Shown here piece by piece: positions 15,227 through 31,000 of a stretch of DNA of 64,000 nucleotides. How positions within the stretch are numbered: position 1 is the stretch's first letter; the number at the start of each line of letters is the position of its first letter. A program made the translations under genes and the position numbers. The stretch is from assembly GCF_000685395.1 (NCBI RefSeq), contig NZ_AVSQ01000021.1, positions 1 through 64,000 on the forward strand. The letters are read 5' to 3'. The notes under the pieces were generated by a model that had not been told where the DNA came from, did not search any database, and saw nothing but the letters and a program-made list of their open reading frames with translations. The stretch is from Candidatus Nitrosotenuis chungbukensis (GTDB lineage Archaea > Thermoproteota > Nitrososphaeria > Nitrososphaerales > Nitrosopumilaceae).

Positions 15227-17172
15227 TGGGGGATGACGAACACTGTAACATTTTCAGCTTCACTGCCAAGTTTGTCTTTTATCTTCTGAATACTTTTACT
15301 TTTTGACCACACATGACATTCATCAAATCCCAAATCTTTCCATTTTGTCATGTTTAATCTAACTTGCTCAGGATGAGCCTTAGCATGCGATTTTGATTCA
15401 ATTTCAACTGAGATTGTAATATCGTTTTCATAATCGTGAACTATGAGATCAGGTCGCATTTCATGTTCTTTGATATATTGATTAGCTAAAGAGATAAAGA
15501 ATTTCTTTTCAAGATAATAATCATACACTTTATGTGTTATTTCGTTTATGTCTTCTGCAGTTCCAATGGATTCGAATGTTTCTGGAAAATAACATTTTCG
15601 GGCATTTTCAGAAAGAGCATACTCATGCATGAATATAGGACCAAATTTTTTTGACTTGGAGATTACAATTACATTGTCATTACTGAGTGCTCGAATAACT
15701 TCACTTGTTTTATCCCTGTGAATACTTTTCACACCTTCTACTATTTGTGCTAGATTTCCATTTCTATTACGCAAAAATAAAATAACATCCCATTCATCTT
15801 TAGTTCTAAATTCTGCATCGAGTTGACTCAGCCATGCGATTTTCTTGCTCGTTTTTGAATCAAACGTAGATTCAATAATCTCTTTTGAGCCATATTGATC
15901 TTTCATTTTTTGAATAAATTGATTTGTTTCAAATTCAGACAAAACTAGTGGTGGGGGAGGGAGTGCATGGAATTGAATTGGCATATTTTGTTGACATCCA
16001 AGAGGAGGTCGGATTTTTGCAGTAAAGATGAAATCAGGTTGTGTTGTTATTTGATCAGTAATTTCTTGTGAAAAACGAGGATCAATTATTCTAGATATGT
16101 TTCCAGCATCAGATCCAGACATTCTTCCATAAATCTGCGTAGACGTGTTACCCACTACTGTTTCAAGAATTTCTGGGCTTATCTGCGCTATATTCTGATG
16201 AGATAAAATCAAACCTAGATTATATGAACGAGATTGAGAAAGAATCGTCAATAAAATTGACATATCAGATATTTTTTGAAATTCATCCAGCGTTAAAATA
16301 ACGAGACTTCGTTTGTCAGATTCAATTTTACTAGCTCGTTCTTGAATCATAAACCAAATTTTTATCACGATTGTCATTATTGCCAAACCACGTACATGTT
16401 TTGGTGTCTCAGTGTCAGATATTCTAAAAATTGTAATATTTCCAGGCTGTAATATTTTTTCAAAATCAACAGTTGTTTTCTTGACCCCAAATTTCTTTCT
16501 CAAATACTGTTCGGTAACAAACACCTCAAGCCTATTCAGAAGTGGAATCCATGCATCTTTTGGAAGTGATGAGATAGAGTCCAACGCAACTTCCATTTCA
16601 GGCCCAGTGACATTTTTGAAAATTTGTCTAATTTGTCCAAGCTCCGCAGGCCCATATTTTTGCAATTTTATAATCATATAATATAGATCTATGATCATCG
16701 GAGAATCAGTATTTGAGTACAGATAATGCAATAACAAACGCAAAATTCGTTCCATTTGGACATATGTTTGATGTTGTGAATACAGGTCTCGAAACATCTC
16801 TATTAGATGTCCAACCATTCGGCTCACGACATTATTACGTTGTGATTCATGGTACTTTGGAAGTTCAAGTAGGTTTACAGCGAAATCAATATGATTGATA
16901 TCCAAATAGGTTACATTGTTGTTATCAAATGAGATTTTATCGCATTGACGCAAAAATAGCATTGCGTCTTCATCTTTAATGTCAATATAGATAGCGGAAC
17001 TATGCAGAGTGTCAGTGTAATTTGCGCATTCCAGATGTTTGTACAAATTTCGGATCAAAGTGGATTTGCCACTACCGGAACCTCCAAGAAGATACAAATG
17101 TCGTGATAGGTCTTCGGGTGCGATTCCCACTATGTTTTCCTTCAACGAATTGGATAGGCTGCCAAACTCCAT
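15196..17172 (-). CDS. VirD4/TraG-HerA-like ATPase fused to winged helix and PD-(D/E)xK-like domain
   Basis: This 658-aa protein has an additional-strand ATPase of the HerA/FtsK group. Walker A is G30-G-S-G-S-G-K36-S-T and Walker B is LVILTLDE (D297-E298). A conserved SRSYNLGLILSHQ follows (about 313-325). After about 450 comes a winged-helix-like region (DEWDVILFLRNRNGNLAQI), and residues 572-658 resemble a PD-(D/E)xK nuclease (D575, E592-S-K594, then a Q/HVW region). Coupling ATPases of this kind pump DNA in conjugation; the nuclease-like tail is unusual. The upstream 395-aa gene probably supplies the usual N-terminal domain. The gene is AT-rich and marks the start of the island; its 3' end overlaps metH by 31 bp. 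Confidence 0.78.
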   Translation of the reverse strand: MEFGSLSNSLKENIVGIAPEDLSRHLYLLGGSGSGKSTLIRNLYKHLECANYTDTLHSSAIYIDIKDEDAMLFLRQCDKISFDNNNVTYLDINHIDFAVNLLELPKYHESQRNNVVSRMVGHLIEMFRDLYSQHQTYVQMERILRLLLHYLYSNTDSPMIIDLYYMIIKLQKYGPAELGQIRQIFKNVTGPEMEVALDSISSLPKDAWIPLLNRLEVFVTEQYLRKKFGVKKTTVDFEKILQPGNITIFRISDTETPKHVRGLAIMTIVIKIWFMIQERASKIESDKRSLVILTLDEFQKISDMSILLTILSQSRSYNLGLILSHQNIAQISPEILETVVGNTSTQIYGRMSGSDAGNISRIIDPRFSQEITDQITTQPDFIFTAKIRPPLGCQQNMPIQFHALPPPPLVLSEFETNQFIQKMKDQYGSKEIIESTFDSKTSKKIAWLSQLDAEFRTKDEWDVILFLRNRNGNLAQIVEGVKSIHRDKTSEVIRALSNDNVIVISKSKKFGPIFMHEYALSENARKCYFPETFESIGTAEDINEITHKVYDYYLEKKFFISLANQYIKEHEMRPDLIVHDYENDITISVEIESKSHAKAHPEQVRLNMTKWKDLGFDECHVWSKSKSIQKIKDKLGSEAENVTVFVIPHHNTKYSASG

Positions 17173-17284
17173 TTCGACTGATTTTGATATAGTATTTATT
17201 GTTCTTAAAGATCCGCTTTTAGTACTTTATTAACATCATACTAAATTACACGATTTTTTTGTGTATATCCAGATTATCAGTTCA

Positions 17285-18472
17285 TCAAAGTACAGATCCC
17301 AAAGAAAACACCATCTTGTCATAATTCAGTCCCTTTAGCTTCTGTCGCCTATATGAGATAGGCAAGGTTGGGTCAGTTGGCAATGAAACAAAAATAGGAA
17401 ATTCGTCTGGCGCGAGACATAAAAATTGCACAAAATCACGACCAATGCCCCAATTCATGTTGTTCCACATGTTTGCGTTTTCTTCCAATATTTCAACGGC
17501 GTATTTACTAGTAATGGTATTGTTTTCAAGCCATTTGTATGCAACATCAAGATCAGGATAATCAAAATACTCCAATGAGTCTCCGATGATCCTAATACTT
17601 GAAAAAACAGCATCCAAGTTTTGTGCTGCCGCTTTGAAATCATTTTGATTCCCCACAATTATTCCTCGAATAGAAAGAGTTATTGGTACAGATTGAGCTT
17701 TTTGATGATAAATTTCTTCCAGCTTTTTTCCTGTTTGATATATAGATGAAGAGAGTTGTTTTGTTCTTGGAAATGTTTTAGTGGCCACAGTAGGAATAAA
17801 ATTATACCCGATTCCAGTGAAAACATATTTTGTTATCCCTTCTTCCATAGATTTTAGATATCGACTTAATTTTGAAGATGTGAGTTTTGCAATTTGATTC
17901 CATTTTACAGATCTAGTGAAAACAAACTGAACAACAATTCCACAATTTTTACTAGTGTTCATTGCACGAATTAATTTATTGATTATTGGTTCTTGTAGGG
18001 GTTCAAGTGAGGTAAAATTGAATTGATTTGCGAGCTCAAAATCAAAAAAATAGGCATGGTGATTAGAAGATGAAGATTCACTCAGAATTGGCAGCATCTT
18101 TAATCCAGTGTCCCGGTATTCAAGTCCTAATGATTTGGCATAACCTTGAATGTCCTGCAAGGTAGATCTTATCACTAATCGAATCGTATCGGAGTCATCA
18201 TGTTTGTACAATTCAAACGACCTTATCGCCTCAGTTACAATATGAGAAAGAGGAATGTTATTCTCTTTTAATGTAGGAAATATTTCATATGCTATGATTT
18301 CTAGGTCTGGTGGTTCAGATACATAATTTGCATACATACCAGCACCAAAATAATCTGGATCGGGCATTCCATCTTTTTGAAATTTTTTGAGGAATTTAGG
18401 AATTGTTTTTCGACGAATTAATCCGATAGTTTTATTTTTGTATTGAAACCAAACCACAAAAATAGAAGACAT
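17285..18472 (-). CDS. Conjugation-associated protein, probable partner of the VirD4-like ATPase
   Basis: I do not recognise a named family for this 395-aa protein. It lies 112 bp upstream of the ATPase gene on the same strand. The segment PITLSIRGIIVGNQNDFKAA, followed by AQNLDAVFSSIR, resembles the region that precedes the motor domain in single-chain TraG/VirB4-type conjugation ATPases (an alpha/beta domain with a repeated 'accumulated index' helix). I infer that the pair is a split version of such a protein. No signal peptide or clear membrane segment is seen. The composition is AT-rich like the rest of the island. Confidence 0.5.
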   Translation of the reverse strand: MSSIFVVWFQYKNKTIGLIRRKTIPKFLKKFQKDGMPDPDYFGAGMYANYVSEPPDLEIIAYEIFPTLKENNIPLSHIVTEAIRSFELYKHDDSDTIRLVIRSTLQDIQGYAKSLGLEYRDTGLKMLPILSESSSSNHHAYFFDFELANQFNFTSLEPLQEPIINKLIRAMNTSKNCGIVVQFVFTRSVKWNQIAKLTSSKLSRYLKSMEEGITKYVFTGIGYNFIPTVATKTFPRTKQLSSSIYQTGKKLEEIYHQKAQSVPITLSIRGIIVGNQNDFKAAAQNLDAVFSSIRIIGDSLEYFDYPDLDVAYKWLENNTITSKYAVEILEENANMWNNMNWGIGRDFVQFLCLAPDEFPIFVSLPTDPTLPISYRRQKLKGLNYDKMVFSLGSVL

Positions 18473-18831
18473 TTCAATTTTTTAAAGTTTCTTCACATTG
18501 CTATCGATGTAAGATTCGTTATTACACTACAAAATAGCCCAGGATTGAATTAAGTTCAATATGTTTTCTGATATATAGAAGTCCGAGAAAGAAATGATTG
18601 CAGCAAATTAACGAATATGTAGATAAGAGAAAACACAACATCCCTTCGGACTCGTTTTCAATGTGGTATCGGGCACCTTTTTCACAAATCAACGGCAGGG
18701 AGTCATCTCCGTTTCAGCGACGTTAGTCCAGATACCTCAGGAACGGGTCAGCGAATGCGGACTGAAACGGAGAATGAGTGAGGCACAGGCGGAAATCTTG
18801 AATACCATTAAACTAGAATCATTGTTGAACA
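18473..18831 (+). ncRNA. Gene-free stretch with a long inverted repeat; possible structured RNA
   Basis: TCTCCGTTTCAG (18706-18717) and CTGAAACGGAGA (18762-18773) form a perfect 12-bp inverted repeat around a 44-nt loop that holds further short complementary pieces (AGTCC with GGACT). A GATATATAG box at about 18570 could start a plus-strand transcript near 18600. I see no protein frame across it. It could be a small RNA, the 5' leader of the next gene or an operator; no known RNA family is recognised. Confidence 0.35.
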
Positions 18832-19191
18832 ATGGATGAACTCACGGGGTTTCAAATCGAAGAAGTAGTAAAAGAAAAACTTGAGAAAGAACACGGTAAA
18901 AAATTTTCAAAGAGAAAAATCACTATTGGAAACTATGACCGGGAAATCGACTTACTCTCAGACGATGGAGAGATCGCGGTTCAGGTCAAAAGCGGCAAAG
19001 ATTTTTCATCTTCTGGACGAATTAGCCCCTACAGATTTGCCGAAATCTGTATAGATTGTCTAATTCTGATGGCATCTAAATCACCCAAAAAATTGATGAT
19101 TCTTACCGATAAGGGAATGCTCGAACAATTTAACAAAGAATCAGGGGGCTTGCCTATATTCGGAGTTGAACTAAAGTTAATCGAATGTTAG
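18832..19191 (+). CDS. Small PD-(D/E)xK-like (restriction endonuclease-fold) protein
   Basis: In this 119-aa protein the core NYDREIDLLSDDGEIAVQVK has the spacing of a PD-(D/E)xK nuclease: D40, then Q51-V-K53 with Gln in place of Glu, as in some Mrr/restriction families. The following helix (YRFAEICIDCLILMA) and strand (KLMILTDKG) fit the fold. A DNA-cleaving role in defence is inferred from this and its neighbours. No partner is obvious. Confidence 0.6.
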   Translation: MDELTGFQIEEVVKEKLEKEHGKKFSKRKITIGNYDREIDLLSDDGEIAVQVKSGKDFSSSGRISPYRFAEICIDCLILMASKSPKKLMILTDKGMLEQFNKESGGLPIFGVELKLIEC

Positions 19192-19238
19192 AGATCATGA
19201 GCGAAGTTGAATAAATAGTTTAAAGTGATAATGAAATA

Positions 19239-19697
19239 ATGAAATATTTTGCATATGGTTCTAACATGAGTCAGGTTCGGATGAAAGAAGAGAGAAAAAT
19301 AAATTTTCTCAATAGGCGCCATGCGGTGCTGAACAACTATTCTTTTCAGTTCAACAAAATAGCTACCGGTAAACTTGCCAAATCTGGAGAAGGAAAGGGA
19401 AACATCGTATGTAGTGCGGGGGGAGTAGTTGAGGGCGCATTGTATGATATTAAACCTATAGATCGAAACAAACTTGATTGCGTCGAAGGATATCCTTTCC
19501 ATTACGAAAGAATTACAGTCATGGTTCAATTAGACAACGAATCCGTTGTTGAAGCATTCGCCTATATTGCGCATCATGACAAAGTAAAGAACGGACTAAA
19601 GCCTACCAAAAAATATCTCAGTTACTATTTGGAAGCTGATGATATCTTGTCAAAGGAATATTATCGAAAATTGAAGTCTTGGCCTACACTAGATTAG
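19239..19697 (+). CDS. Gamma-glutamylcyclotransferase-like (AIG2/GGCT) protein
   Basis: This 152-aa protein begins MKYFAYGSNM, the conserved glycine-rich entry of the GGCT fold, and has VVEGALYDI and LDCVEGYPFHYER with the candidate catalytic Glu. Family members cyclise gamma-glutamyl amines or related peptides. Why one sits in this island is unclear; such genes do travel on accessory elements. It is AT-rich and preceded by a TTTAAAG box at about 19217-19223, close to the start. Confidence 0.8.
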   Translation: MKYFAYGSNMSQVRMKEERKINFLNRRHAVLNNYSFQFNKIATGKLAKSGEGKGNIVCSAGGVVEGALYDIKPIDRNKLDCVEGYPFHYERITVMVQLDNESVVEAFAYIAHHDKVKNGLKPTKKYLSYYLEADDILSKEYYRKLKSWPTLD

Positions 19698-19764
19698 TAA
19701 ATCACACACATTAAACAGTAGAATTACCTAAAAGATTTTTGTATGGGCATTCAAACTATATGCA

Positions 19765-20361
19765 ATGAGTAATTACCCGATAGAAGACGAATATGCTCAC
19801 CACATAACTAATCAAATTGTCGATTATTTTAGAAAACGTGGATTTGATGTAACGTCAATTCCAATTTCTAGGAATGTGGAGAGACGGGAAGGCTATGACT
19901 GGAGATACGAGATAAAAGGCTTGAATAAGGTGTTTATGTTACAGTTCAAGAGACCAAATCCGCGAGACACCAACATATCTTGGGAATTAGACCAAGTTCA
20001 GCATGACAATATTGCAGACAAGCCGTATATTTTCTACTGCCTTCCAAAGAGTAATCAGAGAGAGGAGATGGAGGTTATGATCCACAGGTGTCTATTCAAA
20101 CGTGCTTCTTTTCCCTTTGTGAGAATTCTGAGACCGCAAATGTTAAGATACTGTGATGGTTGGGGCAGTTTTGCATCGAAAGTACTTCAATGTCTCTATG
20201 GTATAAGGTTGGACATATCTAAAAGAAAAGACGAAGATGTATTCGAGGATGTAGAAATAAACTTCAAAGAACCTATTGCCATCTTCGGCATCTCCTTGAA
20301 AGACAAAAAAATAAAGATATTTGCAAATGAGAAAATAATAAAGAAATCAGATCATGAATAG
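19765..20361 (+). CDS. Hypothetical protein, possible PD-(D/E)xK-like nuclease
   Basis: I do not recognise this 198-aa protein with certainty. An N-terminal helix (YAHHITNQIVDYFRKRGFDV) is followed by EGYDWRYEIKG and FMLQFKRPNP. D45 with Q60-F-K62 could be a nuclease-type metal site with Gln for Glu. The second half (CYGW...IFGISLKDKKIKIFAN) has no clear match. It sits among other nuclease-like genes. A TATA-like element precedes ATG 19765. Confidence 0.5.
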   Translation: MSNYPIEDEYAHHITNQIVDYFRKRGFDVTSIPISRNVERREGYDWRYEIKGLNKVFMLQFKRPNPRDTNISWELDQVQHDNIADKPYIFYCLPKSNQREEMEVMIHRCLFKRASFPFVRILRPQMLRYCDGWGSFASKVLQCLYGIRLDISKRKDEDVFEDVEINFKEPIAIFGISLKDKKIKIFANEKIIKKSDHE

Positions 20362-20402
20362 TCTAAGAATTGTAATCTTGAGAAACAAAAGTGTACTAAA
20401 TT

Positions 20403-21515
20403 CTAGGAATAATGCGCCGCGTTTGCTAAATCCATCTTCTTGATTTCTTCCGAGAGCGTAGTCAAATGACTGTGAATTTCTGTGAGTACTGTCAATGACA
20501 TCCCTGCATATGGTCCAGCTTTTTTCGCAAGATCAATCAGCATAGATACTACGTCAATGATCCAGTTGATCATCTTTTCAGCGTTATCGCCTATCAAATT
20601 CAGAACTGATTTTATTGCCTCTGAAAACTTGCTACGAGTTTCTTTGCGAGAGATTAGGATTACTGTTAGAATAACCAAGCCAATGCCCAAGATAATGCCT
20701 AGAATCTTCTTAGCGTTTGGTGGGATTCTTGAGATCAAGTCGCTGACTTTGTCAACAGCGCCAGATGTCATCCCTTTGAGCAAATCCCACATAAGTTGGA
20801 GTATTTCGAATATGCCTTTAACTATTGCAATTATCACCTTACCTAGGATTTCTAATACAAACGGCAAGACATCATTCATGATGAAAAACGAGAACATGCC
20901 GCGGTGAAACACTCCGACAGTGTCATTCAAACCTTTCATGCTAAACGTACGAACAGAAGGTATCTCATAGTCATTATCGTATGTGAGAACTGCATGAGCG
21001 CCCATCTCTATGTAAAGGCTGACAAACGGAACATCTGACGGATCCCTATCCCCTATAATCTTCATGGCTGCATTTCTTGCAGCGTCATTCTCTACGTCCT
21101 TGATAATTATGATCTGCCTTATTTTTTCCCATCCTTCCCTAAGTTTTTCCCTGTCCAATCCTTTTGCCTTCTTTCCTCCAATGAACTTTTGCACCTCTGA
21201 TTCTATTTCTCTTGGAGAGTAGAACGTAAAGAGAGGATTTTCCGCCAGTTTGAAAATGATTGATGGTTCGCCTTTGGCATAACGTTTGAGGGTCGAGTTC
21301 ACAATGTTAGTGTCCATCACAATACTAACTTTGAGTTGGCCCAGCTTTTCCCCAAGCCAGACATGCATATTCTTCTCAATCCGTTCCTTGACCCATATCC
21401 ACATGTCAGAATCAAGCGATTTGCTTACTTCATTTAGATACCACTCTACCTTCTCTGAAACATCTGATTTTCCATTAATGATAGCCTTTTCTACTTTTGG
21501 CTTTGGATTTTCCAC
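20403..21515 (-). CDS. PIN-domain protein with C-terminal membrane segments
   Basis: In this 370-aa protein a PIN-like ribonuclease domain spans about 62-185. Candidate metal ligands are D68 (VMDTN), E104 or E106, D158 or D161 (GDRDPSDVPF) and D180 or D182 (LTYDNDYE). The C-terminal half holds hydrophobic stretches at about 205-245 and a clear transmembrane helix at about 270-290 (ILGIILGIGLVILTVILIS), followed by an amphipathic tail. A PIN nuclease tied to the membrane is unusual and would fit a defence effector, but that is inference. It is transcribed alone, between two plus-strand genes. Confidence 0.65.
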   Translation of the reverse strand: MENPKPKVEKAIINGKSDVSEKVEWYLNEVSKSLDSDMWIWVKERIEKNMHVWLGEKLGQLKVSIVMDTNIVNSTLKRYAKGEPSIIFKLAENPLFTFYSPREIESEVQKFIGGKKAKGLDREKLREGWEKIRQIIIIKDVENDAARNAAMKIIGDRDPSDVPFVSLYIEMGAHAVLTYDNDYEIPSVRTFSMKGLNDTVGVFHRGMFSFFIMNDVLPFVLEILGKVIIAIVKGIFEILQLMWDLLKGMTSGAVDKVSDLISRIPPNAKKILGIILGIGLVILTVILISRKETRSKFSEAIKSVLNLIGDNAEKMINWIIDVVSMLIDLAKKAGPYAGMSLTVLTEIHSHLTTLSEEIKKMDLANAAHYS

Positions 21516-21641
21516 GTCATGGACAAGTTGATTCTTTTTTAAGAATTTAACTTTTGTAAGATGAATTGAGATCGCAGTGAACTATGAGCGGAAGCCGGTG
21601 TAAATTTAATTTAGGAATCGGTAACTAAATGTTTAATCGTT

Positions 21642-22211
21642 ATGGATTTCATAGGCCCGAGCAAATGCGATGAAGCAAGAATGTCTAGGGAGATGGATAT
21701 TGAAAACGTCTGGAAGGATTTGACAAATAATAAGGGTTTTGTTGAAACGTACGCCCTATTTGGTCCTACAATTGATTTTTTTAGGGAAGCACAGTCATGT
21801 TATCAAAACAGCGCATACATGGCTACAGCATTAATGTGCAGAGCTACGACAGAGATTGGAATCTACTATCTGGTTTCAAGATATGTTAACAAGTATTCTC
21901 CGGAAGACAAAACAGTATTGGAAATAAAAAAATTGCTTGAGATTGGAGATCAGTGGAGAACAATTTTTCAAGTCGCAAAAACTAAATGTGATATTAACGA
22001 AAATCTTGAGCTGGTCATAAACGAAATCAGGGAGGCGGGAAATTTTGTAGCGCATTACGCGCAGAAGATGGATAAAAGAGATTTTAACCATCTTGTTGAG
22101 AAAGAGTCTTGGTTTACCAGAGACAAGGCATTAGAGATATTAAAGAAAACGGTTCTAGTGATAAATCATCTTCTTAAACATACATACGAGCGACTTCCAA
22201 AAAATTCTTGA
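21642..22211 (+). CDS. DUF4145-like (HEPN-type) protein
   Basis: This 189-aa, mainly helical protein has CRATTEIGIYYLVSRY (about 66-81) and INEIREAGNFVAHYA (about 127-140), which match the two conserved helices of DUF4145 proteins. The R130...H138 pair fits the HEPN RNase-type active site with slightly longer spacing. DUF4145 domains are frequent in restriction and abortive-infection loci. A TTTAATTTAG box lies about 30 nt before ATG 21642. Confidence 0.6.
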   Translation: MDFIGPSKCDEARMSREMDIENVWKDLTNNKGFVETYALFGPTIDFFREAQSCYQNSAYMATALMCRATTEIGIYYLVSRYVNKYSPEDKTVLEIKKLLEIGDQWRTIFQVAKTKCDINENLELVINEIREAGNFVAHYAQKMDKRDFNHLVEKESWFTRDKALEILKKTVLVINHLLKHTYERLPKNS

Positions 22212-22278
22212 AATCTTGAGCACATTAAGATGAGTCGAATTTTTTTCTAAAATGTATTTCAATGATTAGAAATGATCA

Positions 22279-22788
22279 TCAATAACCTATGATCAGAATC
22301 CCTTTCAGTGGCAACTCAAGCTTTCTGCTGGCATACAAAACATCAAAAAACAGATTAACTGCCTCGAAATCCTTTTTGCCCCTGTAAACTTTTCTGACAG
22401 CAATGACTAGATAATCCGTTGCGTTCATCATGCACGCTTCAAAGAGATCTTTGAGGAATTGATTATTGGCAACGGCCCTGCCTGCCTCTACCTCAATAAC
22501 GGTTTTCGTTTCCCCGTTGTACGCATCGGCGTTAAAAGACTTGTCCATTTTTCCGTTCTTGCCAAACAACACCGGTATCCTGACAATGTTTTCCCTTTTC
22601 GCAGAAGCTTCAACTTCGTACCCGAGTTCGGTAAGGCCTTCTCTGAGAAACGAAAGTACTTTGTTACTGACGAGTGTCATTGTTTGAGAACCTACGTGCT
22701 GCTCATTTTTTACAAAAACGTCTATCACGCCTTGAAGATGCTTTGGCATGGCCGCCGATTTGGGAAAGTACTGCCACGTTATGTCCAT
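22279..22788 (-). CDS. Restriction endonuclease-fold (PD-(D/E)xK-like) protein
   Basis: I start at ATG 22788 (MDITWQYFPKSAAMPKHLQG); the frame is open to 22842. FNADAYNGETKTVIEVEAGR holds D106 and E117-V-E119 (numbered from 22842), a BglII/PD-(D/E)xK-like metal site, followed by a long helix (NQFLKDLFEACMM) and DYLVIAVRKVYRG. It is divergent from the NurA-like gene; starts lie about 94 bp apart. A Type II-like DNA cleavage role within the adjoining cassette is inferred. Confidence 0.6.
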   Translation of the reverse strand: MDITWQYFPKSAAMPKHLQGVIDVFVKNEQHVGSQTMTLVSNKVLSFLREGLTELGYEVEASAKRENIVRIPVLFGKNGKMDKSFNADAYNGETKTVIEVEAGRAVANNQFLKDLFEACMMNATDYLVIAVRKVYRGKKDFEAVNLFFDVLYASRKLELPLKGILIIGY

Positions 22789-22882
22789 ACACATTAAGCA
22801 AGTATGACATTCTCTTAACTTTTCGGATCTGTTGTTGTGCAATCGGCATAATCAATAAAAGCTTGCAAACCAAGTTCTTTTA

Positions 22883-24052
22883 ATGGAGACTTACGATCCG
22901 GAATCATCTTTTTCTGATCTTCCTCAAGCCATGGTTGAGGAAATGCTTTCTGATTACAAAGGGTTGTCATCAAAGGTATCTGACGACATAACTAATTTGC
23001 AAAAGGACAAAGACAAGTTTCGTGACGAATTGAAAGGCAGAATGAGACATGAATCAGACGTTATCAAAGTGCAATCTTTTCCGACCACGGCCGGAACTGA
23101 TGGTTCTAACTGCTACGATAAATTACTAGCAACTGATTTTGTTGCAATAGCTGCAGTGGCAGTAGAGGGACTGACTCCTCCTAAGATGATGGAACCAATT
23201 TGGAAAAAACCGCGTCATTTTGTCAAAGTTGAAAGTTTACCGCACGATGAAAATACGGCAGTATTATCTCAAGCAATAATGTTTTCCATGGAAATGCAGC
23301 TTGCTGCATTGGCTCCACACAATGTGATTTTTATTGACGGCTCTCTTCTGACTTTGAGCATTTCTTATAACATCGCACTCAACAAAAAATCTCCCGAAAA
23401 ACTAATAGACTTTTTGATCAATGGAGATAAAAAAGAATACTCTGATGACAGAGCCAAGTTTCAGGGAATAAAACACACGTTGGAATGTTATAAGGAAATT
23501 CTAGCGGCCAAAAGGACCGACAGAATGGTGGTTGCAGCTCCAAAATACACCGTAAAAAACGACGTTTGCAAAAGCATAGGAAAAGAAGGATTCGACGACA
23601 GAGGATTTTTGTCTGTCATTCTCAAACCTGGCGAATTCATTGAACCTTTTGAGTTTGAAAGGGATCATCCGGGTAAATTTCTAATTGCAAGCCTTCACGA
23701 TGAATTAAAATCGGTAGCAGATGACATAGAAAAACTTCTCCGTGAGATTCATGTCACGTACTACAAACCGAAAGAACATTTTCCTGCCATCAGATTAGAA
23801 ATGAGCTCGGCGGTAGCAAAAAACAAAGAGCGTTTGGCGATGTTGTTTGACGCAGTCAAATTGCAAACTGGGTATCCTGGAATCATGGAACCTTATCCAA
23901 CTTATCTTGCGGACAGGATGGTAAAGCATTTGTCGAAGGCTTTGCCAGTAATAAAAGGAATTTCCATGAATCAAATGGTAGAGAAGTGGGAGGGAAGCAC
24001 CTCTGACATCAACGTGTCCATGCATTCGTATCGGACTGGTGGGTTCAGATAA
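22883..24052 (+). CDS. nurA: NurA-domain nuclease
   Basis: This 389-aa protein has the two hallmark NurA acidic motifs: GTDGS (D73) and FIDGSLLTL (D152). NurA is a Mn-dependent 5'-3' nuclease that works in a ring with the HerA translocase, which is encoded next and overlaps by 1 nt (TAATG). In most archaea NurA-HerA sit with Mre11-Rad50 for end resection. Here neither is near; the neighbours are restriction-type genes, so a defence version is likely. Confidence 0.82.
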   Translation: METYDPESSFSDLPQAMVEEMLSDYKGLSSKVSDDITNLQKDKDKFRDELKGRMRHESDVIKVQSFPTTAGTDGSNCYDKLLATDFVAIAAVAVEGLTPPKMMEPIWKKPRHFVKVESLPHDENTAVLSQAIMFSMEMQLAALAPHNVIFIDGSLLTLSISYNIALNKKSPEKLIDFLINGDKKEYSDDRAKFQGIKHTLECYKEILAAKRTDRMVVAAPKYTVKNDVCKSIGKEGFDDRGFLSVILKPGEFIEPFEFERDHPGKFLIASLHDELKSVADDIEKLLREIHVTYYKPKEHFPAIRLEMSSAVAKNKERLAMLFDAVKLQTGYPGIMEPYPTYLADRMVKHLSKALPVIKGISMNQMVEKWEGSTSDINVSMHSYRTGGFR

Positions 24053-25845
24053 TGTCTGAACTTTCCAATTTGGTCGACAAAGCCGAAGACATAGGTGTAG
24101 TGGGTTCTCCATCTTCCACCTCTCACTTAAAGTTGGACATTTTGGGCAGAGCGGCTGACAAGAGACTTGTCGGTTCTATGGCGGTGCTAAAATACACTCA
24201 AGACGGTCACGCAAATTACGCTCTGGGTCAGATTACGGAAGTTTCTCTTTACAACCCTTTTGTGATGGATCCTACTATGAGGTCCATAATACGACAACGT
24301 GGTAGCGTTGAACCCATCACTGAACGGCAAGACACGCACAGTGCTGACATGTTGATAAGCGCCGTGTTTCAAGAAAGCGGAGACGGACTTGATCCGAGCT
24401 CGTTTTCCACTGTTCCATCTACGGGTTCTCGGATTAAGACGATTAACCAAGACATAGTAGATAAGTTAGTTTCTCCATATTCAAAAGAAATCTCGTACAT
24501 AGGAAAAATTTTTGGAACTGATGTCCTCATGCCAAGCCTTTTCAGGAATTTTGGGAACGAAGCGGAAGGGGGCCTTGGTGAGGCAATGCACATAGGAGTT
24601 TTCGGAAAAAGCGGTTCAGGAAAATCGTTTCTAGGAAAAATGATTCTTGCCTCATACATGAGGCACAAACAGATGACCTTGTTAGTGGTCGATCCGCAAG
24701 GAGAGTTTTCCAAAATGAAAAATGACAAAAATTTGATGGATTATGTTGAAAAAACACTTGGAAGAAAAATTGAATTTTATGATTTATCGAAACTAGTTCT
24801 TCTTCCAGAAATAGAATTATTCAAACAGATTCTTGTCAAATCAAAATTTCTCAAAGATCTTGGAATAAAAAACATGGATAATCAAGAAGATGGGGCAGAC
24901 GAAATAGCCAAAATTTTAAGTCATGATTGGGGCCACTCGATTGCAAGCGGAATTACCGGCAGGATAAACCTATGGGATGCTTACCAAAGACCTGTTTTTG
25001 ATCATGTTTGGGAAAGGCTGACACACACGCGGCCAAGAAATGGTGAACAGATTCCTATTGTAATTGAAAGAATCTACTCGACCCCGTCATACAGAGATAA
25101 AGTTTTTAGCGACATGCAGGACATAACGCGAAATCCAGAACGTTTGGAGGCTTTTTATCAAAAATGGAGAAAAGTGACGAGTCTTTTTGGCAGAGAGGGA
25201 ATGGGACCGTCTAACAATTTGGCTCTCATTTTGAAGGCCATTGGAAAACGCGGAGACGGTAGAATCATCATAATCAACTTGTCAGAAGCCGAAGTTCCAG
25301 ATTATCTATTTTGGAACGAAGAGATCAAAAAAGTTGCAATAAATCAAATTCTCCAGAGAATCGCAGAAGTGGCTAAGGATCAATATAATGAAGGTGGATC
25401 TCTTAATTCTCTCGTTGTACTTGACGAAGCCCATGAATTCGCGCCAAGGGAAAGAACTGACGAAGAGGAAATCATCGAACTAAGAGATACACTTACCACT
25501 GCGGTAAGAGAAACCAGAAAATATAATCTTGGTTGGATGTTCATCAGCCAAACCTTGTCCAGTCTAGACAGAAGAATAATCGAACAGCTTCGAATGTATT
25601 TCATAGGGTATGGTCTAGCTTACGGTATCGAACTTAGCGGTGTAAGGGAATTATTGGCTGGAAACGATTCGGCAATACGCCTGTATCAGCAATTCCAAGA
25701 TCCTAAAAGCAGTTACACGAAGCCGAAGTATTCGTTCATGTGCATAGGGCCATCATCTCCTATGTCGTTCTCACAAATTCCGTTGTTTTTAAATTCCTTG
25801 AATTATCCAAAAGAGTTTCTAAATATTAATGACAAAACCAATTGA
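24052..25845 (+). CDS. herA: HerA-type DNA translocase/helicase
   Basis: This 597-aa protein has an N-terminal HAS-like barrel (about 25-160), Walker A G185-K-S-G-S-G-K191-S, the DPQGEF strand (about 214-219), Walker B LVVLDEAHEFAPRE and the sensor region TRKYNLGWMFISQTLSSLD, as in HerA. HerA forms a hexameric pump that feeds DNA ends to NurA. Its start overlaps the NurA stop (TAATG), so the two are translationally coupled. The composition is AT-rich. The GHKL ATPase follows after 116 bp. Confidence 0.9.
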   Translation: MSELSNLVDKAEDIGVVGSPSSTSHLKLDILGRAADKRLVGSMAVLKYTQDGHANYALGQITEVSLYNPFVMDPTMRSIIRQRGSVEPITERQDTHSADMLISAVFQESGDGLDPSSFSTVPSTGSRIKTINQDIVDKLVSPYSKEISYIGKIFGTDVLMPSLFRNFGNEAEGGLGEAMHIGVFGKSGSGKSFLGKMILASYMRHKQMTLLVVDPQGEFSKMKNDKNLMDYVEKTLGRKIEFYDLSKLVLLPEIELFKQILVKSKFLKDLGIKNMDNQEDGADEIAKILSHDWGHSIASGITGRINLWDAYQRPVFDHVWERLTHTRPRNGEQIPIVIERIYSTPSYRDKVFSDMQDITRNPERLEAFYQKWRKVTSLFGREGMGPSNNLALILKAIGKRGDGRIIIINLSEAEVPDYLFWNEEIKKVAINQILQRIAEVAKDQYNEGGSLNSLVVLDEAHEFAPRERTDEEEIIELRDTLTTAVRETRKYNLGWMFISQTLSSLDRRIIEQLRMYFIGYGLAYGIELSGVRELLAGNDSAIRLYQQFQDPKSSYTKPKYSFMCIGPSSPMSFSQIPLFLNSLNYPKEFLNINDKTN

Positions 25846-25961
25846 TTACGTTGTATTAATTTGGTAGAATGACATTCCGAGAGTTTTTTGTGGTTTAAGA
25901 TTGGACACGGCCAACAACGCTCAAAGTTCCTGTAAATATCTTTAATACGTTACTTTAGCAA

Positions 25962-27872
25962 ATGGTAACAATGACCCTACCTGAGTTCAGGATGCATTTT
26001 GAACCAACTACGATAGAACATTTGGGACACAGCTTGTACACTAGAATCGCTCCGGTAATCGGAGAACTGGTTTCTAATTCTTGGGATGCTGAAGCAGAGA
26101 AAGTGGAGATTACAATTCCTGAAACAAGTATCACCCCAGACACGGAAATAGTTGTTAGAGATTATGGAAACGGTATGAATCCTAACGAAATAAACGACGC
26201 ATATCTTCAAATCGGTAGAAATTGTAGGGTTGAACTTGGCAGAGAAGTCACAAAAAACAAAAAACGAGACATAATGGGTAGGAAGGGAATAGGAAAGTTG
26301 GCTGCTTTTGGCGTTGCCAATGAAGTAGAACTGCGTTCCATAAAAAATGGCGAGGCTGTTTGCATCAAATTAAATTTTAATGACATGAAAACATGGCCCA
26401 AAGAAAAAGGAGATTATCAACCAGTAGTAGTAGACAGTAGAACTGGAAAAACAAGTGAAGAAAATGGAACCGAATTAAGAATTCGTCAAATACAGCGTTC
26501 CACACCCATTGTAAGCGAAATAGTTCGGAAGGAATTGGCACGAAGGTTCATCATAGTTACCAAGAAAGATTTTGAAGTGTATGTGAACGGAACAAAGATC
26601 ACAAAAGCTGATAGAAGACTTCGAGAAGACTGCAAAAAATCATGGGAGATCAATGACCTCCCCATGGGAAATATCATAAGTCAATCTGCGGGTTGGCAGG
26701 TGGATGGATGGATAGGTGTAACATCAAAAACGTCTCAAACAGAACGCGGATTAGATATCTTTGTGAGAGGAAAAGCAGCTGAGCTCAACACTATGTTTAA
26801 TTTGAAAACTACAACAACGCAATTTGCAAGATCCTATGTTGTTGGAGAGATTACCGCTAATTTTCTTGATACACAAAAAGGCGATTTCGTTGGAACTGGA
26901 AGAAGTTCAGTTCAATGGGAAACATTACCGGGTGAAGCGTTAGAAAAATGGGGCCAAGAAGTTCTCAAGTATATTTTTGCCGAATGGCTAAAGATGCAAA
27001 AAAAAGAAAAAGAAGACAAAATAGCAAAGTTAACAAATTTTCATACTTGGTATCAATCTAGAACTACAAGAGAACAAAAGGTAGCAAAGACATTCTTCGA
27101 TGCCATAATAAACGATGAAAATATTGAACCCGAATCTGCAAAACCGTTGTTAGAGATGCTAAAAACAAATATCGAATACCAAGCTTTTCAAGATCTGGTG
27201 GAAGAGATTGGAGAAAAAGGGATCAGTGTTGAAACTTTGATCAAACTCTTTAACGATTGGAGAATAATAGAAGCACGTGAGCATCTAATTCTTTCTGATG
27301 GCAGATTTGAAATCATTGAACAACTTGATGATCTTGTTGAACGAGGAGCGTTGGAAGTCCAACACATACAACCAATTTTTGAGGAACATGGATGGATCGT
27401 AAACCCATCGTGGAATGAAGTAACTGGTCAAAACAGATATTCAAAGTTGTTAAGGGAGCAATTTGAGGAATCCTCAAAATTAACTGAAAAAGACAGAAGA
27501 ATCGACATATTGGGGTATGAGGTTGGAGGCACTCTGCACGTAGTAGAAATAAAGAGGCCAGACAAAACCCTAAGTTGGGCCGATTTGGATCAAATTGAAA
27601 GATACGTGCGATGGGTAAGAAAAAATGTCGTTGGGACCGGAAAAGATTCTCCAAGATATGCAACGGGATTGCTCATAGTGGGCCGCCTAAGCAGAGATTC
27701 CACGATCCAGGACAAACAGACTGCTCTAGCTGGTCAAGACATAAGAGTTGAAACTTTTAGAGATCTGTTACACACATCTGAAAAAGTGTACGGGTTGGTT
27801 GACGAAAGATTGCAAAAAATAGCACCAGAATATTCACGCAAAAAAAGAAAGGAACGTAAGAGATCCAAATGA
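25962..27872 (+). CDS. MORC/MutL-type GHKL ATPase with C-terminal PD-(D/E)xK-like domain
   Basis: In this 636-aa protein the GHKL ATP-binding site is complete: E35-L-V-S-N39 (motif I), D67-Y-G-N-G71 (motif II) and G106-R-K-G-I-G-K112 (lid). A transducer-like region and a helical region (about 200-430) follow. Residues about 440-610 look like a nuclease domain: D515 (RRIDILG) and E529-I-K531 (VVEIKRP), then LDQIERYVRW, similar to Shedu/DUF4263-type PD-(D/E)xK domains. The tail is strongly basic (KKRKERKRSK). MORC-like GHKL ATPases have been linked by comparative genomics to restriction-modification loci. An ATP-driven DNA clamp that cuts is inferred. Confidence 0.82.
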   Translation: MVTMTLPEFRMHFEPTTIEHLGHSLYTRIAPVIGELVSNSWDAEAEKVEITIPETSITPDTEIVVRDYGNGMNPNEINDAYLQIGRNCRVELGREVTKNKKRDIMGRKGIGKLAAFGVANEVELRSIKNGEAVCIKLNFNDMKTWPKEKGDYQPVVVDSRTGKTSEENGTELRIRQIQRSTPIVSEIVRKELARRFIIVTKKDFEVYVNGTKITKADRRLREDCKKSWEINDLPMGNIISQSAGWQVDGWIGVTSKTSQTERGLDIFVRGKAAELNTMFNLKTTTTQFARSYVVGEITANFLDTQKGDFVGTGRSSVQWETLPGEALEKWGQEVLKYIFAEWLKMQKKEKEDKIAKLTNFHTWYQSRTTREQKVAKTFFDAIINDENIEPESAKPLLEMLKTNIEYQAFQDLVEEIGEKGISVETLIKLFNDWRIIEAREHLILSDGRFEIIEQLDDLVERGALEVQHIQPIFEEHGWIVNPSWNEVTGQNRYSKLLREQFEESSKLTEKDRRIDILGYEVGGTLHVVEIKRPDKTLSWADLDQIERYVRWVRKNVVGTGKDSPRYATGLLIVGRLSRDSTIQDKQTALAGQDIRVETFRDLLHTSEKVYGLVDERLQKIAPEYSRKKRKERKRSK

Positions 27873-27918
27873 AAATAGAATAAACATTTAGCATAACCGT
27901 CAGATAAAGTGCTTTATC

Positions 27919-28329
27919 ATGAATGATATGTTTTCTAAGAAAAAAAGAAGTGAAATCATGAGCAAGATCAAAAGCAAGAATACCAAGCTTGATTGCTCAA
28001 TGGCAAAGATTTTGACAAAATCACACTTTACATTCAGACAATATCCAAAAATTTTTGGAAATCCAGATTTTGTAGTGAAGAAAAAAGTGGTAGTTTTCTG
28101 TGACAGCTCATTTTGGCACGGAAGAAACTGGAGAAAATTGAAACAAAAACTGTCACGCGGTAACAATCCACAATACTGGGTTTCTCACATCGCAAAAAAC
28201 AAGAAACGTGATAAGATGGTAAACAAGAAGATGAGGAATGACGGTTATATAGTTGTTAGATTTTGGGACACGGACGTTTACAAGCGACCCGAGTGGTGCA
28301 TCGACGAAATCAAAAAGGCGTTAAAGTGA
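27919..28329 (+). CDS. vsr: Very-short-patch repair endonuclease (Vsr)
   Basis: This 136-aa protein, close to the usual family length, begins MNDMFSKKKRSEIMSKIKSK (the Vsr N-terminal basic region). It has GNPDFVVKKKVVVFCDSSFW and HGRNW, with catalytic D50 and His67. Vsr nicks DNA 5' of T in T:G mismatches that arise when 5-methylcytosine deaminates. Its partner methyltransferase lies directly downstream on the opposite strand; the two stop codons abut as TGATCA. Some Vsr-fold proteins in restriction loci are plain endonucleases, so restriction is an alternative. Confidence 0.9.
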   Translation: MNDMFSKKKRSEIMSKIKSKNTKLDCSMAKILTKSHFTFRQYPKIFGNPDFVVKKKVVVFCDSSFWHGRNWRKLKQKLSRGNNPQYWVSHIAKNKKRDKMVNKKMRNDGYIVVRFWDTDVYKRPEWCIDEIKKALK

Positions 28330-29451
28330 TCAAGGCAGTATTTTCAGCAAATTCTCCGCTATTTTCTGAGTCAGTAAGACAGGTACTGCGTCCCCAATCA
28401 TCTCTTCTAAGTCTTGTTTGGATCCCTCCATCTCAAAACTGTCCGGAATGGTCTGAATGCGGGACGCTTCCCTTATCGTGATTGCGCGGCTTTGTGATGG
28501 GTGAATGAATCTTCCGCAGGCCGGAGTAGTGCATCTACCAGTTATTGTCCCAGACGGCTTGTCCCATGACATCCTACCGTAAACTGAATCCGCACCATGT
28601 TTAATTTTCTTGTGGCATTCCAACCACATGCTTCTAGGAAGGTCTGTCCTGCTCCCACCATCCTTTGGAACGTGTTTTATCATTTTCAGAACTTTTGCAC
28701 TGTGATTTCTTGCGGAATGTAACGAATCGTTTCTGTCGGTTTGACCTGGTCGAAGTGATTTTAGCTCTCCGATCGCATCACGAACAGTTTTTGGTTTTTT
28801 GATTTTATTTTTGTAAAATTTTTCAATTTCCTCTGTTTTCTTTTTGGTGAGAAATCTCTTTTTTATGGATATTGCGACCACTCTGAATCTGTTCTGTGGA
28901 ACTCCAAAATCAGCCGCGTTCACAGTGCCGTAAAATGTTACGTATCCTGCTCGTTTTAGTGTCCTCAAGTATCTTTTAAAGAAAATTTTTCCCGGCCCTT
29001 CTATCATCCACGGAACATTTTCAAAAATTACTGCGGTGGGCTTGGTTTCCTCGACTAGTTTGGCGAATTTGTTAACGTACCTGCTTCTCGGATCCTTCAA
29101 GACGTTTATACTCCTCGTATCCGACAGCTTGCTGAATGATTGACACGGAGGGCAACCGATCATGCAAAATTTTCCTCCCTTTCTTAATTTTGCCTCTGCG
29201 AGAAGATCTTCTCCGTCAATTTTCAGGACATCTGATTGAATCGGTTTGAGGCCGATGTTCTTTTCGTATATGCGGCATCGCAGCGGGTTGATCTCTAGCG
29301 CGGCGGCTATTTGAAAACCGGCTCTCTTGAATCCAAGTGAGGCGCATCCCATCCCAGAAAAAACGTCTATTACTTGATAAGCGCCTTTCATAACGCCTCT
29401 TTCGTCAAAATTTCGATTGGAGGACATACTCAATCTCTTATTTCTCAGCAT
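28330..29451 (-). CDS. dcm: DNA (cytosine-5-)-methyltransferase
   Basis: This 373-aa protein has motif I FSGMGCASLGFKRAG, motif IV GCPPCQSF with catalytic C103, motif VI (FENVPWMIEG), motif VIII (PQNRFRVVAI) and motifs IX-X (SRAITIREASRIQTIPDSF). The target-recognition region is short (about 235-320). It methylates cytosine at C5 in a specific site that cannot be read from sequence. The start could be ATG 29451, 29427 or 29391 (MKGAYQVIDVFS). It converges on vsr with no gap. With Vsr and nucleases next to it, it is likely the modification arm of the cassette. Confidence 0.93.
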   Translation of the reverse strand: MLRNKRLSMSSNRNFDERGVMKGAYQVIDVFSGMGCASLGFKRAGFQIAAALEINPLRCRIYEKNIGLKPIQSDVLKIDGEDLLAEAKLRKGGKFCMIGCPPCQSFSKLSDTRSINVLKDPRSRYVNKFAKLVEETKPTAVIFENVPWMIEGPGKIFFKRYLRTLKRAGYVTFYGTVNAADFGVPQNRFRVVAISIKKRFLTKKKTEEIEKFYKNKIKKPKTVRDAIGELKSLRPGQTDRNDSLHSARNHSAKVLKMIKHVPKDGGSRTDLPRSMWLECHKKIKHGADSVYGRMSWDKPSGTITGRCTTPACGRFIHPSQSRAITIREASRIQTIPDSFEMEGSKQDLEEMIGDAVPVLLTQKIAENLLKILP

Positions 29452-29690
29452 TTATCTTTTCATACGTCCTGCGGCAAAACAACTCAAACTCGCTTAAGAT
29501 GTTACGTTTTTCGTAACTCCGTAGTAGTTCCGAAACATTATGCCTCTTCCAGACATGTGAATAAGACGCACTTCATTGCCGTATCCGACAAGAGTCAAGT
29601 GCGTGAAGGTTGATTATGCTACATCTTTTAGAGCACGTATTTTACGATCTCATGTGGAGTTAGTAACGGTTCAAAAATCATTTCAACAGA
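29452..29690. other. Short intergenic stretch with small hairpin
   Basis: GTTACG-tttttc-GTAAC (about 29500-29515) could fold into a small hairpin upstream of the methyltransferase gene. I see no supported gene here; the short plus-strand frame is not convincing. Confidence 0.3.
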
Positions 29691-29819
29691 TCACTTCTTG
29701 GGCTTATCCCAGTATGGACTCTTACATTTAGCGCAACGCGTCGGTTTTTCTTTGTCTCGTGATAACCATTCATGCCCACACCTATCACATTTCAAAATTT
29801 TTCTAGTTACTTCCCCCAA
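29691..29819 (-). CDS. Small zinc-ribbon protein (42 aa)
   Basis: Starting at TTG 29819, the frame encodes 42 aa with CDRCG (C11-x2-C14) and CAKCK (C29-x2-C32), a compact zinc ribbon, in a basic peptide (EVTRKILK...WDKPKK). A TATA-like CTTTATAC on the minus strand (29841-29848) lies about 26 nt upstream, so the message would be leaderless. Tiny zinc-ribbon proteins of this pattern are common in thaumarchaea and may bind nucleic acid or partners; function unknown. Confidence 0.7.
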   Translation of the reverse strand: MGEVTRKILKCDRCGHEWLSRDKEKPTRCAKCKSPYWDKPKK

Positions 29820-29825
29820 CACCAA

Positions 29826-29883
29826 TAGTGCGCACTAACAGTATAAAGTCTTATATACACTTTAAGTGTACACTAATAGTGTA
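29826..29883. promoter_or_regulatory. Divergent promoter with three palindromes
   Basis: TAGTGCGCACTA (29826-29837) is a perfect palindrome. TACACTTTAAGTGTA (29856-29870) and TACACTAATAGTGTA (29869-29883) are both 7-1-7 palindromes with shared TACACT/AGTGTA arms. They flank and overlap the two TATA boxes (CTTATATAC plus, CTTTATAC minus) between the zinc-ribbon and the Cys-rich gene. This is an operator array for a dimeric regulator that would control both genes. Confidence 0.7.
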
Positions 29884-29990
29884 TGAGATACTTTGAGAAT
29901 ACATTGATCTGCGAATCGTGTCAGTACGGATTTTGTGAGGATTGTGTCGCACCATCATGCGGGTGTCAATGTAAAAAGAAATATCAATAA
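29883..29990 (+). CDS. Cys-rich mini-protein (35 aa)
   Basis: ATG 29883 opens a 35-aa frame with seven cysteines: C10, C13, C18, C21, C26, C28 and C30 (LICESCQYGFCEDC, then PSCGCQCKKK). The paired spacing suggests a zinc- or copper-binding knot. A CTTATATAC box about 26-30 nt upstream makes the message leaderless, and one operator palindrome ends on the start codon. I do not recognise a family. The function may be metal handling or regulation of the island. Confidence 0.6.
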   Translation: MRYFENTLICESCQYGFCEDCVAPSCGCQCKKKYQ

Positions 29991-30025
29991 AATAACCTAT
30001 TTTAAATTTAAAAATAATTTAATGA

Positions 30026-31000
30026 TTAAAACGCGGCCATTTTTCCTCGCAGAAAATACGTACCAAAAATGATAAACCCTACAGCGGCCACATGTAATTC
30101 ACGTATAGATTCACTCAAAATGAAATATGAAAGCATCACACCAAATATGGTGGTGGTTGAAAACAAGATTATGCTTCTCGTTGGTCCAATTATTTTAATT
30201 GCAGCAACCAAAAATAAAATAGAGATCCCAACTCCAAAAATCCCGGTAAATAACACAGTTGGTATTTCTTCAAGTAGAGTTTCTTCAAAACCTAGGTAAA
30301 TTCCACCAAAAAACAATGCAGCGGCCAAAGCTGTGATCCCCGTGATATAGGAAGTTATTTCCATCATTCGTAATGAGCCAATATTTTCGCCGACTTTTTT
30401 AAACAACAACATTTCAATCCCATAAAAAAAACAAGAAAGAATCACAAGAAAATCACCAGCAATAGACGAATGTGATGAATCATGCATCGATGTATCGATA
30501 AACACTGGAACTAACACAGACCCCACAATTATTAATAAAAATGGAAATATTTCATATCGACGTAATTTTTCTTTGAGAAAAATAAAAGCAATCAACATGG
30601 TAAACACGATATCCATATTTCCTAAAATAGCCCCATTCGTAGCAGATGTCTTTTCTAAGCCAAAGTAGAATGTTGTGGTGGCAATAGCTTCAATTATGGA
30701 AACAGTCAAAAGCATGATCTTGTCGTTTTTCCCGATTTTGGAAAATGAAATTTGTTTGTATTTCGATAATTTTTTTGATTTTGAAATTATTTTAATTAAG
30801 AATGTAAACAAAATGGCAGACACCAAAAACATCAATGCAGTTATTGAAAATGGATTGAAAGTTGATTTTACAACATGCTCGTCAAGGATTGGTTTTGGTA
30901 ATACGTCGGCAATTGCGCCAAAAAATGCAGACATTATTGCCAAACATATTCCAAGTGTGACTAATTTTGTACTCTGGTGACATGTATCTGTTCTAAACAC
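30026..31000 (-). CDS. EamA/DMT-family membrane transporter
   Basis: The frame is open to 31027 (333 codons) and encodes ten hydrophobic helices in the DMT two-fold pattern (LGICLAIMSAFFGAIADVLP; GAILGNMDIVFTMLIAFIFL near the end of the first half; VVGPTRSIILF-type second half). The start is uncertain: GTG 31000, TTG 30943 or ATG 30934 are all possible. Its 5' end runs into the truncated VirB11-like gene, as if inserted or fused there. The substrate is unknown (metabolite efflux is typical). Confidence 0.8.
   Translation of the reverse strand: MFRTDTCHQSTKLVTLGICLAIMSAFFGAIADVLPKPILDEHVVKSTFNPFSITALMFLVSAILFTFLIKIISKSKKLSKYKQISFSKIGKNDKIMLLTVSIIEAIATTTFYFGLEKTSATNGAILGNMDIVFTMLIAFIFLKEKLRRYEIFPFLLIIVGSVLVPVFIDTSMHDSSHSSIAGDFLVILSCFFYGIEMLLFKKVGENIGSLRMMEITSYITGITALAAALFFGGIYLGFEETLLEEIPTVLFTGIFGVGISILFLVAAIKIIGPTRSIILFSTTTIFGVMLSYFILSESIRELHVAAVGFIIFGTYFLRGKMAAF

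Follow-up and report, generated by a model that had tools for sequence, protein, structure and literature searches.

Gene content of the cassette

The window analysed here is a stretch of 64,000 nucleotides from Candidatus Nitrosotenuis chungbukensis (contig NZ_AVSQ01000021.1, positions 1 to 64,000 of the forward strand). It contains a cassette of six genes: a possible nuclease gene, a divergent NurA-HerA pair (NurA2 and HerA2), a GHKL ATPase fused to a nuclease, a Vsr-like endonuclease and a DNA (cytosine-5) methyltransferase (C5 methyltransferase). The cassette and its main features are as follows.

22279..22842, minus strand: PD-(D/E)xK-like protein of 187 amino acids (aa), no family assigned; sequence motif only; start may be 22794
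22883..24052, plus strand: NurA2, divergent NurA-fold nuclease (AlphaFold2 model, Foldseek; PF09376 below cut-off)
24052..25845, plus strand: HerA2, HerA/FtsK-type DNA-pumping ATPase (PF01935, Walker motifs); one-base overlap with NurA2 (TAATG)
25935..25947, plus strand: CTTTAATA, a candidate TATA-like box some 25 bases upstream of the ATG at 25971; predicted from sequence only
25962..27872, plus strand: BbrUII/HgiDII-like type II restriction endonuclease in which a GHKL ATPase is joined to a D-ExK nuclease (NF050001, motifs)
27919..28329, plus strand: Vsr-like endonuclease (TIGR00632, alignment to Escherichia coli Vsr)
28330..29451, minus strand: C5 methyltransferase (PF00145, TIGR00675), convergent with Vsr
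15227..31000, no strand: acquired island holding the cassette, approximate extent (low GC; missing from the corresponding site of the closest relative)

An earlier note had placed six genes here and read them as one system. The listing of open reading frames (ORFs) of the window contains all six at the coordinates above, and the TAATG overlap of NurA2 and HerA2 is confirmed. The identities proposed for NurA (by fold), HerA, the GHKL-nuclease, Vsr and the C5 methyltransferase hold; the PD-(D/E)xK label of the first gene is a motif assignment with no Pfam match. A detail passed over previously is that the methyltransferase gene lies on the minus strand and converges with the Vsr gene, their stop codons touching.

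Restriction-modification genes

Sequence and gene neighbourhoods indicate that the GHKL, Vsr and C5 methyltransferase genes form a stand-alone type II restriction-modification (R-M) system, a divergent representative of a type already known. Residues 9-610 of the GHKL protein match NF050001, the NCBIfam model for the BbrUII/HgiDII restriction enzyme (E 2.4e-98, 330 bits); since the curated cut-off of this model is 550 bits, the protein is described as BbrUII/HgiDII-like and not as a member of the equivalog. It also matches Pfam HATPase_c_3 (E 1e-20). Identity to the relatives aligned with it is 24-28%. The ATP-binding residues D67-G-G71 and G109-G-K112 are invariant in nine relatives, as are D515 and K531 of the C-terminal D-ExK nuclease. 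It had been proposed that this protein is a sensor or clamp for HerA-NurA. The full-length likeness to BbrUII/HgiDII and the protein's own nuclease motif, with which it needs no outside nuclease, speak against this role; it is better read as the probable restriction endonuclease itself than as a MORC-like sensor serving HerA-NurA.

The Vsr-like protein matches the Pfam Vsr model (E 6e-20) and TIGR00632 (E 7e-27). In an alignment to E. coli Vsr, its D51 and H69 are conserved, H64 is replaced by D and the zinc ligands are missing; its closest relative likewise has D for H64 and no zinc ligands. We take these residues to have the roles commonly assigned to them in the E. coli enzyme; because H64 is replaced and the zinc ligands are gone, the exact activity of the window's Vsr is uncertain. 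The C5 methyltransferase matches PF00145 (DNA_methylase; E 4e-59) and TIGR00675, and all C5 motifs are present.

GHKL relatives were found in two other genomes among the 398 of the phylum. The first (G319, same family) has at locus L059 a GHKL gene together with Vsr (54% identical) and a C5 methyltransferase (63% identical), the latter two convergent as in the window; no NurA2 or HerA2 lies within 16 kb. The second (G368, L060) has GHKL and a C5 methyltransferase. At eight plasmid loci of GHKL relatives, a C5 methyltransferase is present in seven and Vsr in three. Across all ten loci, a C5 methyltransferase lies beside or near GHKL in nine and Vsr occurs in four; NurA2 or HerA2 is found in none.

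The TATA-like box CTTTAATA before the GHKL gene suggests that the R-M genes may have a separate transcript. HgiDII cuts GTCGAC; this site occurs eight times in the 64-kb window, where 9.1 are expected. Palindrome avoidance as a guide to the recognition site gave no clear signal, 64 kb being too short.

The NurA2-HerA2 pair

NurA2 is recognised by its fold. Its match to Pfam NurA (PF09376; E 9e-4, 19.3 bits) is below the cut-off of 21, and a sequence search of the PDB with the NurA2 profile gave no match; the NurA fold is seen only by fold search. An AlphaFold2 model built from 21 sequences has a mean predicted local distance difference test (pLDDT) of 88.9 and a predicted template modelling score (pTM) of 0.86. 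When this model is searched against the PDB with Foldseek, the ten best matches are all NurA chains, the best being 9x1m (Thermococcus kodakarensis NurA; E 4.7e-12, prob 1.00). D73, E95 and D152 are invariant in 21 relatives, and the model places them on or next to strands of its RNase H-like core; these are the putative catalytic residues of NurA2.

HerA2 matches PF01935 (DUF87) with an E of 2e-13 and 51.2 bits (cut-off 23.2), and its Walker A (GKSGSGKS) and Walker B (DEA) motifs are invariant in 18 relatives. The HerA2 profile matches HerA structures; the DUF4297-HerA structure 8xau is among its solved relatives. Against NF040819, the equivalog for the HerA of double-strand break repair, it scores 31.5 bits, below the cut-off of 970. 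A canonical NurA-HerA-Mre11-Rad50 operon is located on another contig (C20) of the host genome; the window's NurA2-HerA2 is thus a second copy. The earlier note's own objection, that the pair might be the only copy in the cell, consequently does not apply.

NurA2-HerA2 is a separate deep lineage, a horizontally spread variant of known NurA-HerA. It is present at 46 loci besides that of the window, from at least ten phyla. Scanning 84,980 species with the NurA2 profile gave 29 loci, distributed over Bathyarchaeota, Nitrososphaeria, Chloroflexota, Thermomicrobiota, Gemmatimonadota, Pseudomonadota, Bacillota, Thermodesulfobacteriota/Myxococcota, Planctomycetota, Deinococcota, Acidobacteriota and Nitrospirota. 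HerA2 relatives are present in three other genomes of the phylum (4/398 with the host), and NurA2 in 22/400 Chloroflexota genomes sampled around a Thermomicrobiaceae genome. One viral contig carries a NurA2 relative and there is one weak plasmid match; no HerA2 was found in viral contigs, and the pair has no match in phage. HerA2 follows NurA2 directly at all loci where both are complete. In the NurA2 and HerA2 trees alike, the window's sequences group with those of two Bathyarchaeota and of one member of the Nitrososphaeraceae (L018, L019 and L028, all archaeal; support 100/99 and 97); this concordance indicates that the pair travels together. Decayed NurA2 copies with frameshifts or stops, as expected of accessory genes, are found in Chloroflexota (L101, L102 and L040), and the HerA2 of L028 has an internal stop. 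A further divergent NurA-like family occurs in Chloroflexota (L104-L107), with neither HerA2 nor DruA adjoining.

DruA and restriction genes near the pair

Clustering of the pair's neighbourhoods gave one recurrent partner, DruA (PF14236; Pfam E down to 2e-109, PADLOC DruA 1e-113). Of the bacterial or viral loci that could be scored, 33/37 have DruA directly upstream of NurA2-HerA2, most often with open frames that overlap; this count takes in two divergent copies (L095, L096) found by Pfam's model. Bacterial cassettes of this kind occur, for instance, in Pyrinomonas methylaliphatogenes K22 (L035) and in Thermogemmatispora. Only one of the seven archaeal loci has it (L028), downstream and on the opposite strand. 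Whole-genome searches found no DruA in the window's genome; the genomes without it in these searches are G000, G227, G283, G398 and G408. An ordinary GNAT gene stands at DruA's position in L019, which may be chance; the DruA domain has been called GNAT-like or GNAT-fold by Burroughs and Aravind (PMC10853773). L028 also encodes a protein kinase fused to an ORC-CDC6-like ATPase (L028:14310-17967), beside the pair and the DruA gene.

DruA-NurA-HerA is a conserved cassette, and it is the part worth following; no description of it was found in the literature searched. Tentatively, it may be an undescribed anti-invader system found across at least ten phyla. A HerA pump would feed duplex DNA to a NurA-fold nuclease under DruA control; the window would then hold an archaeal, DruA-free form acting downstream of whichever restriction system adjoins it.

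R-M genes also cluster near the pair. N6/N4 methyltransferases (PF01555) are located within 10 kb of four of the 18 well-flanked pair loci, which include two near-duplicate pairs (L021/L022, L025/L040); 0.42 matches are expected from methyltransferase density in the same genomes (Poisson P ~0.001). This enrichment makes a link to defence plausible. The R-M partner is a MjaI restriction enzyme in L028 (E 9e-46) and a BPTD_3080-type, type III-like enzyme in L029 and L031; in L032 the methyltransferase is near GmrSD and RecB-like genes. Since these are different R-M systems, the pair keeps R-M company without being tied to one kind. Whether NurA-HerA serves resection of ends or antiviral degradation in archaea is disputed; the HerA-NurA of T. 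kodakarensis degrades both strands from ends of any kind, and antiviral defence has been proposed by the authors (PMC12977600).

The first gene

The gene at 22279-22842 has a possible nuclease motif, D90...E101-V-E103, which is kept in one close relative. It has no Pfam, PADLOC or NCBIfam match, and a single-sequence structure model (pLDDT 41) was not used. Across 379 genomes of the phylum its sole relative, 51% identical, belongs to G334, where it adjoins a C5 methyltransferase, Vsr, a helix-turn-helix protein and a RecB-like helicase-nuclease (L110:4554-11995); the last is of the same family as those adjoining DruA-NurA-HerA in L023, L032 and L045. No relatives were found in viral contigs, and one fragment was found in plasmids. 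Going by the G334 neighbourhood, the first gene keeps R-M company in a manner similar to NurA2-HerA2. Its assignment to the R-M module or the NurA2-HerA2 module would be tentative.

The island and the host genome

The host, an archaeon of the ammonia-oxidising type, has a genome of 1.76 Mb that is 98% complete. The AT-rich, defence-like island that had been suspected from composition is borne out: GC content is 38.1% in the island, 40.5% in the six genes and 45-46% in the flanks, and the island is absent from the closest relative, G287. Genes flanking the site in G287 are 84-100% identical to those of the window, and the site itself lacks homologues of all window genes between 15196 and 30026; the cassette was therefore either acquired once the two lineages had diverged or lost by G287. 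In its place G287 has a pilus-like cluster. A VirB11/FlaI/BasE-type ATPase at 30961-31857 (minus strand) in the window is shortened to 298 aa, whereas the copy at the same site in G287 (L111:12388-13950; 84% identity) is intact at 520 aa; the island thus seems to have displaced part of the pilus-like cluster. A hypervariable hotspot at this site was considered and rejected: the flank genes are 16-23 kb apart in seven sister species, but six of the seven gaps contain conserved lysine/arginine biosynthesis genes. Among these species, the window's arrangement is matched only by G287.

Two probable modules side by side

The cassette probably comprises two separable modules lying side by side in an acquired island, namely an R-M system (25962-29451) and NurA2-HerA2 (22883-25845). 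The most likely reading is that of an R-M system and a defence-linked end-degrading machine which possibly cooperate and are not one apparatus. Gene content, folds, motifs, independent distribution and absence from the closest relative are the observations behind it. Methylation by C5 methyltransferases as protection, cutting by restriction enzymes and pumping of DNA into NurA by HerA are established; the activities of both modules and any cooperation between them are inferred. In the R-M module, the C5 methyltransferase would mark the recognition sites of the host, while the GHKL-nuclease, probably dimerising on ATP, would cut unmarked DNA at those sites. The Vsr-like nuclease may nick T:G mismatches which arise from deaminated 5-methylcytosine, or may be a divergent nickase. 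In the other module, a HerA hexamer would take up duplex DNA at an end and pump it into a NurA dimer for degradation of both strands. Its likeliest role would be to destroy foreign DNA that has free ends, among them those produced by any restriction system close by. Elsewhere the pair forms the DruA-NurA-HerA cassette or stands alone, and it is not tied to the window's R-M system.

Several observations weigh against this reading. No R-M gene is seen within the flanks of the sister loci L018 and L019. The window's pair, and its entire genome, is without DruA; the strongest defence marker is thus missing in exactly this clade. The G334 locus puts a relative of the first gene with a C5 methyltransferase and Vsr, which blurs the boundary between the modules. 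Finally, in two Nitrososphaeraceae loci (L036:9950-16944 and L037:9953-16947) the pair heads a four-gene run that continues with a divergent Mre11-Rad50 of its own, an arrangement which also suits repair.

This last arrangement favours an alternative in which NurA2-HerA2 is a horizontally acquired spare end-resection set for repair and not for defence; NurA-HerA is indeed known for end resection beside Mre11-Rad50. Such a role is unlikely here, as the host already has the canonical operon, the pair is patchy (HerA2 in 4/398 genomes of the phylum, NurA2 in 22/400 of Chloroflexota), decayed copies occur (L101, L102, L028) and the pair shows both an enrichment near R-M genes and a link to DruA.

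The single six-gene, ATP-dependent system of the earlier note, with the methyltransferase marking self, the GHKL protein sensing foreign DNA and HerA-NurA destroying it, is very improbable. It would account for the placing of NurA2, HerA2, GHKL and Vsr on the same strand with tight spacing (gaps of 116 and 46 bp), and it agrees with the general enrichment of R-M genes near the pair and with the company of the first gene's relative in G334. However, the combination recurs at no second locus: homologues of the window's GHKL, Vsr or C5 methyltransferase are present in 0/46 other pair loci (searched with single queries, by which distant methyltransferases may be missed), and the pair in 0/10 GHKL loci. 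The first refutation named in the earlier note, genes that do not co-occur elsewhere, therefore largely applies. Sub-groups do recur, as GHKL with Vsr and C5 methyltransferase in L059 and as the first gene with C5 methyltransferase and Vsr in L110. The nuclease motif and restriction-enzyme family match of the GHKL protein also speak against a single system, and the possible separate promoter before its gene would fit two transcripts.

It is most improbable that NurA2-HerA2 serves the mobile island itself, processing DNA for transfer with the HerA/FtsK-type and VirD4-like ATPase at 15196-17172 of the same island as partner, since no integrase, relaxase or replication gene was identified in the island and relatives of the pair lie in unrelated chromosomal contexts, with one viral contig, one weak plasmid match and no phage match.

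Comparison with known systems

Several described systems come close to parts of the cassette. The window shares with BbrUII/HgiDII-type R-M systems a full-length GHKL protein with C-terminal nuclease and an adjacent C5 methyltransferase, with Vsr often present; it differs in that its GHKL protein is below the equivalog cut-off and its Vsr and methyltransferase genes are convergent. MORC/paraMORC R-M operons likewise combine a GHKL ATPase with cytosine methyltransferase and Vsr. The majority of these operons, about 70% for MORC, include a superfamily 2 (SF2) helicase, and HerA and NurA are unmentioned in their description (Iyer 2008, PMC2292703); there is no SF2 helicase among the window's six genes.

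The pair resembles canonical archaeal NurA-HerA in its NurA fold, HerA ATPase motifs and adjacent, overlapping genes. Unlike the canonical form, NurA2 is below the Pfam cut-off and no Mre11-Rad50 adjoins the pair in the window. In Pyrobaculum, the CRISPR-associated nurA-csm6-herA is also an extra divergent NurA-HerA pair beside an archaeal defence locus (PMC3396285); the window has neither csm6 nor CRISPR, and the likeness is one of locus type. The defining gene of Druantia is DruE (PMC13316683). A DruA-family gene adjoins the bacterial relatives of the pair, but no DruE is recognised beside the pair and the window's genome has no DruA; DruE or DUF1998 had no match in the cassette proteins or in the selected neighbours scanned, which are not all neighbours. 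DUF4297-HerA and SIR2-HerA similarly join a HerA-type hexameric ATPase to a nuclease partner. In the window this partner has a NurA fold with no DUF4297 or SIR2 match, and PADLOC is without a model for HerA with a NurA-fold partner.

The R-M trio is ordinary; the value of the locus is in the pair, a second NurA-HerA lineage which moves between archaea and bacteria, is usually accompanied by DruA in bacteria and clusters with R-M genes of unrelated kinds. Here NurA-HerA is uncoupled from Mre11-Rad50 and from the host repair operon, and the question of resection or antiviral function becomes directly testable in plaque and plasmid assays with laboratory strains.

Other genes in the window

The left edge of the island (15196-18472, minus strand) contains a VirD4/DUF87-like ATPase (15196-17172), weakly similar to Mad8, and then a protein of no assigned family. 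Next to the cassette are a DUF4145 protein (21642-22211) and, at 20403-21515, a PIN-domain protein that probably has membrane segments. Outside the island, an ORF at 51075-51932 (plus strand) resembles an N6/N4 methyltransferase (E 1.6e-10); it is perhaps among the persistent orphan methyltransferases of Nitrososphaerota (PMC10609329).

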